A DNA stretch of 25,727 bases, from positions 1 through 25,727 of IMG/VR virus record IMGVR_UViG_3300049489_000152; one strand, 5' to 3'. Under the pieces are notes generated by a model that was given only the letters and a program-made list of their open reading frames with translations, did no database searches and had not been told where the DNA came from. Shown in pieces: positions 8,776-13,122 of this stretch. The stretch comes from a virus. The stretch's first letter is position 1. The number at the start of each line of letters is the position of its first letter. Made by a program: the position numbers and the translations under genes.

Positions 8776-10272
8776 ATGCCTATTAGTACAGCCGTCGACG
8801 TTTCAGCGGTCGCCCGTGTAGTCGGGATTAAGACTGATTTTAAAAACCTCCGACGCGGCGCGGTTCAATACCTCCCGCAACGGATAGCCCTATTCGGGCA
8901 GGGTGCCACGGCGGCCACGTTTAGCGCCTTGAAAGCTCAAGTCACTAGCGCGCTACAGGTCGCCCAGACTTACGGGTTCGGATCGCCCCTGCATCTCGCG
9001 GCCCTGCAATTGTTCCCCACGAACGGCGACGGCGTGGGGACTCTACCGGTCACAGTGTACCCGCTTGACGATGAGGTCGGGAGCGTGGCCGCGACGGGTA
9101 ACATCGTCCCGGCGGGCGCCGTTACCAAGGCGGGCGCGTTCATTGTTTACATGAATAATATACCGAGCGCGGCGTTCTCCGTGGCGATCGGGGACACGGT
9201 CGCCATGATAACTGCAAAAATGACTACGGCGATCGCGTCCGCTCTCGACCTGCCCATGACGGCGGTCGACGGTGTGACAGACGTCGACCTGACGTCAAAG
9301 TGGAAAGGCGCGAGCGCGAACGGTATCACGGTGGAGGTCGTAGGCCCTACCGATACCGGCGTGACTTACGTCGTAACGCAACCCTCGGGCGGCCTTGTCA
9401 ATCCTAACATTGACGCCGCTCTCGCACAGATCGGGAACGTGTGGGAAACGATGGTTCTTAATTGTCTGAACGTGACGGACACCGCCACGCTTGACAAGTT
9501 CGCGACCGCCGGGGAGGGCCGGTGGGGCGCTCTCGTTCGGAAGCCGTTCATGGCGTTCTCAGGCTCTACCGTGACAAGCGTCGCGACCGCGATCGCTATC
9601 CCAGACGCCCGCAAAACAGACCGGGTTAACGTGCAGCTCGTCGCGCCGGGATCGAAAGACCTACCGTTCGTAGTGGCCGCGCGTCAATTGGCGCGCATCG
9701 CCGTTCTGGCGAATAACAATCCACCCCATGACTATGGCAGCCAGCAGGCGACCGGGTTAACCCCGGGCCTCGATTCTGTGCAATGGGATTATGCGGCGCG
9801 CGATCAAGCGGTCAAGGGCGGGAGCTCTACGGTCGAAGTTCGCGACGGCGTGGTCAACGTCTCCGACGTGGTCACGTTCTATCACCCGACCGGGGACACG
9901 ACGCCCGCCTATCGTTTCGCGGTCGACGTGGTCAAGGTCATGAACATTCTTTTTAATACTGATCTGATTTTTGCCTCCGCAGATTGGGACGGCGCGCCCC
10001 TGATCCCAGACGATCAACCCACGGTTAACCGCTCCGCCAAAAAGCCCAAGACAGCCGTCGCCGCTGTGGCCGCCATGATTGATTCGCTAGGGCTTGAGGC
10101 GATCATTAGCGACCCCGCTACCGCGAAGGGCACGATCGCGGCGGAGATCAATAGCATGAACCCGAAACGCCTCGACGTGGTTTACACTGTGGCGCTAGCG
10201 GGTAACACGAACATTAAATCCATTGACTTTAATTTCGGGTTCTATTTCGGAACCCCTAGCATCGTAGCGTAA
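8776..10272 (+). CDS. Contractile tail sheath protein, Mu gpL-type
   Basis: This subunit of the contractile sheath surrounds the tail tube and shortens to drive the tube through the host envelope. The 498 aa length matches Mu-type sheaths. Recognisable parts are the N-terminal AVQYLPQRIALFGQGATAAT (29-48), a central Ala/Gly/Thr-rich beta domain, GLTPGLDSVQWDYAARDQAV, and the C-terminal PKRLDVVYTVALAGNTNIKSIDFNFGF (about 465-491). That last strand-turn-strand provides inter-subunit linkage in sheath proteins. ATG 8776 has a near-consensus AGGAGA site. It is followed 10 bases later by the tube gene, the standard order. The presence of a sheath makes this a myovirus. Confidence 0.93.
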   Translation: MPISTAVDVSAVARVVGIKTDFKNLRRGAVQYLPQRIALFGQGATAATFSALKAQVTSALQVAQTYGFGSPLHLAALQLFPTNGDGVGTLPVTVYPLDDEVGSVAATGNIVPAGAVTKAGAFIVYMNNIPSAAFSVAIGDTVAMITAKMTTAIASALDLPMTAVDGVTDVDLTSKWKGASANGITVEVVGPTDTGVTYVVTQPSGGLVNPNIDAALAQIGNVWETMVLNCLNVTDTATLDKFATAGEGRWGALVRKPFMAFSGSTVTSVATAIAIPDARKTDRVNVQLVAPGSKDLPFVVAARQLARIAVLANNNPPHDYGSQQATGLTPGLDSVQWDYAARDQAVKGGSSTVEVRDGVVNVSDVVTFYHPTGDTTPAYRFAVDVVKVMNILFNTDLIFASADWDGAPLIPDDQPTVNRSAKKPKTAVAAVAAMIDSLGLEAIISDPATAKGTIAAEINSMNPKRLDVVYTVALAGNTNIKSIDFNFGFYFGTPSIVA

Positions 10273-10282
10273 CGGAGGCACC

Positions 10283-10666
10283 ATGACTGCAATCGGCGGA
10301 TCCCTAGAATCAATCACCCTCGACGGTCGCGAGTTCGCGGTCGCGGCGGACGCAGAGGCACAGCGCAAAATTGGCGGATTTGAGAACGAAGTCCAAGCGA
10401 ACGGGAACGGAACCGCGCGCTTAATTAAGACTCGCGTCCCGCTCTCGATTGAGGGCGTTAACGTGGAAGTCGACGATACGCGCGGCGACCATGAATTTTT
10501 GCAAGCCCTCGCGGATCGGAACGATTTTTTTCCGATCGCGCTCACCTACGCCTCGGGCGTAACGTGGCAGGGCGTCGCACAATTAACGGCGGATCTGCAA
10601 GCGTCAAGCCAGAACGCGACGGCCCCGATCTCGCTCATGGGTCCCGGTAGTTTGACACGCCAATAA
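10283..10666 (+). CDS. Tail tube protein, Mu gpM-type
   Basis: This polymerises into the inner tail tube through which DNA passes. The 127 aa protein sits directly after the sheath. Its core is beta-rich: GSLESITLDGREFAVAADAE, then FENEVQANGNGTARLIKTRVP, then LSIEGVNVEVDDTRGDHEFL, ending with a TADLQASSQNATAPISLMGPG strand pair. A small beta protein with the SITLDG...TARLI layout at this place is typical of Mu/P2-like tube proteins. ATG 10283 has GGAGG 5 bases upstream, consistent with high expression. Confidence 0.85.
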   Translation: MTAIGGSLESITLDGREFAVAADAEAQRKIGGFENEVQANGNGTARLIKTRVPLSIEGVNVEVDDTRGDHEFLQALADRNDFFPIALTYASGVTWQGVAQLTADLQASSQNATAPISLMGPGSLTRQ

Positions 10667-10688: not shown

Positions 10689-11108
10689 ATGGAAACAGTT
10701 TTTAAAGTAGTGCCCGAGGTAGCCGAGGCGGAGTTCGTAAGATTCGCGGAGGCCATGGACATTGATCTGGCCGATCGTGGCCTTACTGAAGAGGACCGCG
10801 CGAGCCTAGCTACACAGCGGGCCGTTATTGTCCGGGCGATCTGTAAGGGGTCGCTCGTTATCAATGATGCGGGCGAGCCTGTGTTCACACCCACGCGGGG
10901 CGACGCTACGGCGCGGCAGCCCTTGACGTTTCCCGAGCCGGGCGGTAGCGTCATGCTATCGGTTGACAAGTTCGGGAAAAATGCCGGTGTAGCTAAGACC
11001 TACGCCATGCTCGGGGAGCTAACGAAAACGACCCCGGCGCATTTTTCGCGTATGGTCGAGCGGGATCTTAAAGTGTGCCGGGCAATTTTTGCGCTTTTTT
11101 TTGGATAG
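10689..11108 (+). CDS. Tail assembly chaperone, short (unshifted) product
   Basis: This is the upstream product of the frameshifting chaperone pair (lambda G / Mu gp41 position), which helps fold the tape measure and recruits tube subunits before tail assembly. The short form is 139 aa. It has helical segments, including VPEVAEAEFVRFAEAMDIDL, TEEDRASLATQRAVIVRAIC and SVDKFGKNAGVAKTYAMLGEL. ATG 10689 is chosen because GGAGG lies 5 bases upstream. GTG 10677, 12 bases earlier, has no equal site. It lies between tube and tape measure, the conserved place for this gene, and ends at TAG 11106-11108 just after the T8 slippery run. Confidence 0.85.
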   Translation: METVFKVVPEVAEAEFVRFAEAMDIDLADRGLTEEDRASLATQRAVIVRAICKGSLVINDAGEPVFTPTRGDATARQPLTFPEPGGSVMLSVDKFGKNAGVAKTYAMLGELTKTTPAHFSRMVERDLKVCRAIFALFFG

Positions 11109-11320
11109 TACGGACGCCGCTCGTCCGTCATGGGGTCGATGAACAATTAACGAAGGGCGCCCACACGCGGGATAATGTGTATAAAGAAATGATACTTCAA
11201 ATATGCACAGACTATCCCGGGCTCCCAGATCCCCGAACGCTCGCGGCGCATGAAATTCGTTTCTTTTATGAGGGCGCGCGCGAATCCCTGAAACGTCACA
11301 GCCGCCCCGGTCGTAAGTAA
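10689..11320 (+). CDS. Tail assembly chaperone, long -1 frameshift fusion product
   Basis: This is the long form of the chaperone, made when ribosomes slip back one base at T8 (11095-11102). It joins 138 residues of the short form to 72 residues read in the -1 frame (TGG at 11102 onward, WIVRTPLVRHGVDEQ...), giving 210 aa. The extension has no credible start of its own and ends in TAA at 11318-11320, overlapping the ATG of the tape measure. In lambda and most tailed phages, the short:long ratio set by slippage is needed for tail assembly. Family function is established, and slippage efficiency here is not known. Confidence 0.88.
11095..11128 (+). promoter_or_regulatory. Programmed -1 ribosomal frameshift element (slippery run plus hairpin)
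   Basis: Eight T (11095-11102) contain the in-frame heptamer T TTT TTT. Seven bases after it starts a perfect 7-bp stem (ACGGACG 11110-11116 with CGTCCGT 11122-11128) with a 5-base loop. That is the usual distance for a stimulatory structure. The zero-frame stop TAG (11106-11108) lies in the spacer. Confidence 0.85.
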
Positions 11321-13122
11321 TGGCCGGGCGGTTCTCAGTCGAGGCGATTTTTAAGGCCGTGGATAAAATCACGGGGCCGGTCAATCGCATGCAGGCCGGT
11401 ATCGCGCGCATGACGGGAACGGCGTCGAAAAATCTCGCGGCGCTTGACGGCTCCATGTCTAAAATCACAGGCGGTCTAGCGCGCGGCGCGGTGGGCGTCG
11501 CTAAGTTCGGCGCGGCGGTTCTCGCGGGCGCGGGCGCGGCTACGGTCGCGGCGATTAATAACCTTGAGGAATCCGCGAGCGCGCTCGTCGATCGGGCGGA
11601 TCGTTTAAATTTTCCGATTGAGGCGCTACAGGAATGGCAATTCGCGGCGGAACAAAGCGGCATGGGCGTTGACGAGTTTGACAAGTCCATCGAAAAATTT
11701 AACAAAAATTTAGGCGACCTTAAAATGGGCGCCGGGGCGCTACAATCGACGCTATCAAAAAAAGGCCCGACCCAACTCGCGGGTATTCTGGAAAAATTAA
11801 AGAACGCGAAAGGGGTCTCGGAGGCGCTCGAGATTTATACGACGGCCCTCGCAGGAATTAAAGACCCCGCGATTAAAGCCTCGCTAGCTGTGGCAGCGTT
11901 CGGAAAATCAGGCGCTAAAATGGTCAACGTTGTCAACCTCGGGGCGGACGGTATCGCGGCGCTCCGTGCGGAGCAACGCGAGAACGGCGTGCTCACAGAC
12001 GAGAACGCCCGTGCCATTGAGGCATACGGCGACGCCATGAATAGTTTCAAGCGTAGCATAGGCGGGTTAATCGCGGGCGTTCTGGGGCCATTGTTCCCGA
12101 TGCTCGGGGATATTGTGAGCGGGTGGCGCGCGTGGATCGTCGCGAATAAAGACATGATTCGCTCGGGCGTGCTCTCGTTTTTTCAGGGCGTGCGGAAAGC
12201 CGTCGCGAATCTGATCGACGCCGTCGCGGCGTTCTCTGCTAAGTACGACCTCCCCGGATTGATAGGCGCCACGATTGACAAGCTCATGGCGCTCGGGGGT
12301 TTTATCGCGGATAATTCGGAATTTTTAATTAACCTCGCGATTGCGTTCGGCGCGGTATCGCTTGCGGTAAAGGCCATGAACATCGTCATGGGTATCGCGA
12401 ACGCTATCGCCTCCACTAATCCATGGATGTTGCTCGCGATCGGTTTAATTACCTTGATAGTGTGGGTATATAGCGCCCGCGATTCGATCGCACAATTCGG
12501 GCGCGACGTCATGGCGTGGTTCTCGCAGCTCTCCCCGGTCGTGCATATTTTAACGCTCGTGGTCGGGGGATTGGCCGCAGCGTTCGGCGTGGTCATGGGC
12601 GTTATGTGGGCGGTCAACGCGGCGACGGCGGCTTATGCCGCAGTTGTAGCGGCGCTTAACGGCGCGCTATTGGTGGCACGCGTGGGCGTCATGCTCTTTA
12701 ATTTTGCGCTCGCGGCTAATCCGATCGGGGCGATCATTCTAGCGGTAACGGTTTTAATAGGGCTCGCGGCGCTATTGGTTGCCAATTGGGACAGCGTCGC
12801 TAAATTCTTTACGGATCTATGGTCGAAAATTGGCGGGATCGTCGACAAGATCGCAGCGGCCATGGGGTTCGGGGATACAATCACGGTCAAGGGGGAGGCA
12901 CCCAAGCCGGGCGCCGGGGAGACGGGCGGGCCTACAGCCACAGGCGCGGCCCCGGCGGCTCAAGTCGTGACGCCAGCGGATCGTATCGCGGGAGCTATCA
13001 CAGAGACGCGCGATACCTCGACGTCCGAGGTCACGATTAAAGACGCAACGGGTCGGGCGGAGGTTACGGGCGGGAAGCTCGGGCCGGGCCTCAAGCTGCA
13101 AAAATCGGGGGGCTTTGAATAA
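11320..13122 (+). CDS. Tail tape measure protein
   Basis: This sets tail length and is ejected ahead of the DNA, helping it cross the inner membrane. The 600 aa protein has the usual composition. Helical repeats at the N-terminus include FKAVDKITGPVNRMQAGIAR. A coiled-coil-like charged part covers about 75-260, and several strongly hydrophobic stretches lie between about 335 and 500 (for example WMLLAIGLITLIVWVY and NPIGAIILAVTVLIGLAALLVA). A disordered Gly/Ala/Thr tail follows. At about 0.15 nm per residue a 600 aa ruler would predict a tail near 90 nm, if the whole protein spans the tube. ATG 11320 overlaps the chaperone TAA (TAATG), so it is coupled. The gene order makes the call firm. Confidence 0.93.
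   Translation: MAGRFSVEAIFKAVDKITGPVNRMQAGIARMTGTASKNLAALDGSMSKITGGLARGAVGVAKFGAAVLAGAGAATVAAINNLEESASALVDRADRLNFPIEALQEWQFAAEQSGMGVDEFDKSIEKFNKNLGDLKMGAGALQSTLSKKGPTQLAGILEKLKNAKGVSEALEIYTTALAGIKDPAIKASLAVAAFGKSGAKMVNVVNLGADGIAALRAEQRENGVLTDENARAIEAYGDAMNSFKRSIGGLIAGVLGPLFPMLGDIVSGWRAWIVANKDMIRSGVLSFFQGVRKAVANLIDAVAAFSAKYDLPGLIGATIDKLMALGGFIADNSEFLINLAIAFGAVSLAVKAMNIVMGIANAIASTNPWMLLAIGLITLIVWVYSARDSIAQFGRDVMAWFSQLSPVVHILTLVVGGLAAAFGVVMGVMWAVNAATAAYAAVVAALNGALLVARVGVMLFNFALAANPIGAIILAVTVLIGLAALLVANWDSVAKFFTDLWSKIGGIVDKIAAAMGFGDTITVKGEAPKPGAGETGGPTATGAAPAAQVVTPADRIAGAITETRDTSTSEVTIKDATGRAEVTGGKLGPGLKLQKSGGFE

Follow-up and report, generated by a model that had tools for sequence, protein, structure and literature searches.

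The tail assembly chaperone (TAC) gene of the window, by which we mean the whole 25,727-base virus record analysed here, appears to be decoded in two frames. We consider it highly probable (about 0.93), on the strength of the sequence and its relatives, that this gene ends in a programmed −1 translational frameshift of the lambda G/G-T type. The window encodes a Mu-type hub and baseplate along with terminase, capsid, sheath, tube and tape measure genes, and the TAC gene is flanked by the tube (phrog_4699) and tape measure (phrog_8125) genes, the gene position of the G/G-T type. A GGAGG Shine-Dalgarno (SD) sequence lies ahead of its ATG, and its 3′ end reads GCG CTT TTT TTT GGA TAG. A first-pass annotation had described a T TTT TTT heptamer in the correct reading frame, a perfect 7-bp hairpin starting 7 bases 3′ of it, a zero-frame stop inside the spacer and a −1 frame open for 72 codons up to the tape measure start; all of these are exact in the sequence (Table 1). 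Open from 11072 onward, the −1 frame places its 72 post-slip codons at 11102-11317. The TAA that ends it (11318-11320) overlaps the tape measure ATG (11320) in a TAATG at 11318-11322.

Table 1. Features of the tail gene region and the predicted frameshift site (window coordinates).
Feature	Position	Strand	Evidence
Tail sheath protein	8776..10272	+	phrog_165, E 1.8e-88
Tail tube protein	10283..10666	+	phrog_4699, E 2.4e-40
Tail assembly chaperone (TAC), G-like zero-frame product, 139 aa	10689..11108	+	phrog_4648, E 2.6e-17
Putative slippery heptamer T_TTT_TTT, zero frame, within 8-T run 11095-11102	11096..11102	+	sequence, relatives' codon constraint
7-nt spacer GGATAGT with zero-frame stop TAG 11106-11108	11103..11109	+	sequence
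Perfect 7-bp hairpin ACGGACG-CCGCT-CGTCCGT, candidate stimulator	11110..11128	+	sequence, folding
−1 frame extension (T-like), 72 codons WIVRTPLVR...RPGRK then TAA	11102..11320	+	relatives' alignment
Tape measure protein	11320..13122	+	phrog_8125, E 1e-29, plus other tape measure families

Based on this layout, we predict that most ribosomes would read CTT TTT TTT GGA and stop at the TAG, yielding the 139-residue chaperone. On T_TTT_TTT, where tRNA-Phe would occupy both TTT codons, a minority would move back by one base and continue with TGG ATA GTA and onward, producing a fusion of 210 residues, 138 from the zero frame and 72 from the extension. On the lambda model, coating of the tape measure would fall to the short form and recruitment of tail tube subunits to the extension. 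We infer the slippage itself and its rate, together with a putative stimulating role for the hairpin; the roles of the two protein forms are those suggested by lambda. An SD match is absent within 14 nt of the tape measure ATG in the window and present in 66 of 82 relatives, and the window phage might couple tape measure translation to synthesis of the rare frameshift product.

Relatives were gathered from phage records, IMG/VR contigs and genome contigs using the sheath as bait, with the genome collection contributing three MAG contigs, and the chaperone and extension were located in them by profile HMMs. The set with both parts comprised 108 loci representing 90 distinct sites, and eight more loci, which carried a chaperone but whose sequence was truncated ahead of the extension, were kept outside the 108. 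A homologous extension was found in the −1 frame in 108/108 loci (90 distinct), which bears out the proposal of a −1 frameshift at the 3′ end of the TAC gene, before the tape measure, adding 72 codons. In the alignment of relatives, the extension motif, (V)RTPLVRxG...RDYxGLPDxRTLxxxEIRFFYxGLRxEL, was conserved no less than the chaperone body. It is this conservation that gives the open −1 frame its significance, since one of 72 codons would arise by chance in the window with a P of about 0.03-0.1 and is not rare alone. In-frame heptamers are likewise frequent, numbering 19 across 16 window genes, and of these the one in TAC alone lies near a zero-frame stop, and it alone is followed at a spacing of 5-9 by a stem of 7 bp or longer. 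A second in-phase T_TTT_TTT, at 10525-10531 inside the tail tube gene, is far from a stop, has no stem nearby and is probably due to chance. In Vibrio phages L014-L017, an insert of about 1.1-1.5 kb, with mostly reverse-strand genes including one for an HTH/homeodomain-like protein, lies between the tail tube and chaperone genes. GenBank annotation at L006 (6378-6572) and L007 (6446-6637) gives the extension as a separate gene overlapping the chaperone stop, and in most other records it is missing.

Evidence on the position of the shift came from codon constraint, measured codon by codon as the relatives' departure from their own codon usage. Among heptamer-bearing relatives, TTG at −2 (z 16) and CTT at −4 (z 12.9) were the extremes, the median over 62 positions being 1.4, and TTT at −3 (z 5.2) was among the five most constrained codons. 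CTT was used in 27/27 cases (4.6 expected), TTT in 29/29 (14.1 expected) and TTG in 26/27 (2.5 expected). Synonymous constraint of this kind indicates selection on nucleotides and not on amino acids alone, and its extreme strength at CTT TTT TTN pins the shift to those codons. They sit in the closing codons of the zero frame, exactly at the handover to the −1 extension. T_TTT_TTG was the commonest site (33 of 90 distinct), accompanied by T_TTT_TTC (8), T_TTT_TTA (7) and T_TTT_TTT (2, in L119 and the window); five had ATT, ATG or CTG after T_TTT, 28 had T_TTA_ATG and seven had other sequences. The earlier description of the signal as textbook somewhat overstates the case, because most heptamer relatives carry T_TTT_TTG, and a heptamer is missing from about 40% of the distinct ones, namely the T_TTA_ATG lineage and a few more. 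Poly-U motifs do shift in E. coli, where U_UUC ranks second and U_UUU third among tetramers and where UUN codons within heptamers favour shifting (PMC4066793). Several loci (L055, L100, L101, L124 and L014-L016) conserve the −1 extension and lack a clear slippery site; the site reads CTG TTG ATG GAC TGA in L100 and CTC ATG CTG GGG TAG in L124. At codon −5, just ahead of CTT, NCG (GCG or ACG) is in excess in both site classes, for which the slip model gives no explanation.

Three other accounts of the two frames were considered. A run of eight T is long enough to allow polymerase slippage, and the eight consecutive T of the window could lead the polymerase to add a T, so that part of the mRNA would encode the fusion. 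However, most heptamer relatives have seven T ending in TTG, members of the T_TTA_ATG lineage have four T at the site and keep the −1 extension, and the constraint on the site follows codon phase; we regard transcriptional slippage as unlikely. The run also lies in a metagenome-derived contig, and the frame break within it could be taken for a homopolymer length error in a gene that is truly one continuous frame. Yet the two-frame layout occurs in all 108 relatives, isolate genomes included, and the codon count of the window matches theirs (CTT TTT TTN GGN TAG), so the T8 of the window looks like a G-to-T change and not an indel. This comparison with relatives, cultured isolates among them, rules out the sequencing error, to which we assign the lowest probability of the three.

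Alternatively, the extension could be translated independently, as a small gene of its own, or be reached by reinitiation after the TAG, and the GenBank records of PD0307 and AeroV_348 do annotate it as a small gene starting at the chaperone stop. Against this, the −1 frame around the stop contained no ATG, GTG or TTG in the window, nor in 53/90 distinct sites; ATG was found there in 0/90, and a weak SD match was seen in just eight. The absence of a start codon rules out an independent start for the window and most relatives. A separate gene would also leave the frozen codons upstream of the stop unexplained, and we consider it very improbable, though slightly less so than the sequencing error. 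Translational −1 frameshifting is the reading that we retain.

The role of the hairpin is less certain than the frameshift. Its arms, ACGGACG (11110-11116) and CGTCCGT (11122-11128), pair perfectly around a 5-nt loop (−9.7 kcal/mol), and when codons were randomised synonymously, 1.2% of draws yielded a stem of 7 bp or longer at a spacing of 5-9; across the genes of the window, 0.33% of codon positions have such a stem. The arms encode the R-T and V-R of the conserved RTPLVR, and four of the seven pairs follow from the protein motif, because it places CGN-ACN opposite GTN-CGN. All seven pairs were present in only one of 65 alignable sequences, that of the window itself, and the wobble pairs (1,19), (4,16) and (7,13) showed no covariation in these sequences (p 0.16, 0.57 and 0.99). 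The hairpin as a conserved element of the signal was therefore rejected. It may be that the frameshift is real and that the hairpin has no role, being a by-product of the R-T-P-L-V-R codons. The dictated pairs, the restriction of full pairing to the window and the lack of covariation favour this possibility, which is compatible with the main reading, whereas the rarity of such a stem among synonymous versions and the family-wide excess of unrelated downstream structures speak against it; we place it a little below even odds.

That excess was observed when the 56 bases from the stop onward were folded and compared with synonymous versions, with random coding stretches from the same loci as controls. 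The family had a mean z of −0.85 versus −0.18 for controls, with 31-32% versus 8% at p<0.05, figures that are descriptive, the relatives being non-independent. Downstream structure of changing form thus seems to be under selection across the family. For the window, downstream folding showed no excess over synonymous randomisation (z about −0.1 to −0.2), which rules out a window-specific folding-energy excess, and no Rfam element was found at the site above chance. The hairpin could nevertheless work as a stimulator in the window phage.

Compared by layout, the window resembles lambda gpG-T in the −1 direction, in a slip site near the zero-frame stop and in an extension in the overlapping frame. 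T_TTT_TTT stands in place of lambda's own slip site, and the window phage, in contrast to lambda, has a contractile tail. Like the lambda gene for gpG and gpG-T, the window gene lies immediately ahead of the tape measure and is predicted to give two products (Levin 1993; Xu, Hendrix and Duda 2004; review PMC5009743). At the level of protein families, neither the chaperone nor the extension matched a lambda-type family in Pfam. Phage_TAC_7 (PF10109), described as the E / 41 / 14 type (Mu gp41 / P2 E), matched 7/14 and 23/51 relatives of the window TAC (best E 3.2e-6 among the 51), and the window TAC itself had no match to this family above its cut-off in the Pfam profile search. AlphaFold predicted a confident, mainly helical chaperone (pLDDT 94) and, with moderate confidence (pLDDT 82), an extension in which two helices accompany a small beta hairpin. 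Among solved structures, the chaperone had no match by sequence, and neither domain had a PDB match by predicted fold.

In Mu, gp41 likewise lies between the tube and tape measure genes, but Mu shifts by −2, and the shift predicted for the window is −1. The −2 shift cited for Mu by the first-pass annotation agrees with the literature (PMC5009743; PMC2628397), and in the Mu sequence both the frame and CGG GGG CGA agree with it. In the window, the −2/+1 frame, where a Mu-type −2 extension would be sought, ends after 13 codons (LDSTDAARPSWGR*). Direct profile comparison with Mu gp41 gave a marginal match (E 0.16), and no similarity was found between the Mu and window extensions. The value of the −1 direction as a data point on Mu-type tails was overstated: it is little news, because Mu's −2 has already been described as the exception, and Mu-like Pseudomonas phages use a −1 site, T TTT TTC (PMC4378225). 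Mu-like phages of P. aeruginosa (the PaMx73 / D3112 group) share with the window the −1 direction and a poly-T heptamer located in the gene pair ahead of the tape measure; they differ in having a flexible siphovirus tail and a site 43 codons before the stop, whereas that of the window is two codons before it. The closest cultured relatives, the group of Shewanella phage SppYZU01 and Oceanospirillum phage vB_OsaM_PD0307 (sheath 65-67% identical, TAC 30-41%), have the same frame layout with T_TTT_TTG or T_TTT_TTC. The hairpin is not kept in this group, and the frameshift is unmarked in its GenBank records.

In 28 of the 90 distinct sites, plus three variants, the heptamer is replaced by T_TTA_ATG_GAY_TAG, usually with an SD-like GAGG 13 nt upstream; members include L019, L025, L033, L040, L045, L070, L107 and L123. 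On a tree of sheath and tube these sites are scattered, requiring 16 changes. On the chaperone tree, nearly all fall in one 35-row clade of moderate support (28 T_TTA_ATG, 4 heptamer, 3 odd), which indicates that the linkage to GAGG is by descent. Repeated independent origin of T_TTA_ATG with GAGG, for which the sheath/tube tree had offered eight independent pairs, was ruled out by the chaperone tree, and these sites are most simply explained as one chaperone lineage exchanged between phages. In L120, compared with L103 and L114, the sheath and tube are nearly identical and the chaperone lineage and shift site differ, a mismatch that points to module exchange at the chaperone gene.

Within this lineage, the most constrained of 108 codons were CTT at −4 (28/31, 5.7 expected), TTA at −3 (31/34, 8.9 expected) and GAG at −9 (25/29, 10.4 expected), and it is GAG that creates GAGG 13 nt before T_TTA. 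SD-like sequences stimulate −1 shifting at a spacing of 9-14 nt (review PMC5009743), and U_UUA is a weak tetramer in E. coli, 1.8 to 3.6 times above background (PMC4066793). The pattern of codon constraint suggests that tandem slippage was replaced here by slippage of tRNA-Leu in the P site, aided by a stimulator upstream. The full scenario would have one lineage dropping X_XXY_YYZ for P-site slippage of a single tRNA on U_UUA, with AUG GAY UAG directly after it and usually with GAGG 13 nt upstream and with the −1 outcome kept, and modules with different sites being swapped between close phages; we hold this to be an even bet. Neither the T run nor the hairpin is conserved in this lineage, a combination that had been named in advance as telling against the frameshift. 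The frameshift still stands, since these relatives retain the −1 extension, and another constrained site takes the place of the heptamer.

Taken together, these analyses give good support to the view that the signal in the window is an ordinary, already-known kind of tail-chaperone frameshift. With the window, an unannotated contractile-tailed group joins the many phages predicted to make two chaperone forms by frameshifting, and gene callers still miss the extension, which is unmarked in most of the cultured relatives examined. The alternative shift site of the sister chaperone lineage is a more interesting by-product than the window site itself; if functional, it must depend on other stimulators, U_UUA being weak in E. 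coli. With 90 distinct sites and one conserved outcome, the family would provide a natural series for studying the trade-offs between slip motif, SD-like pairing and downstream structure, because the motif changes while the needed product stays.
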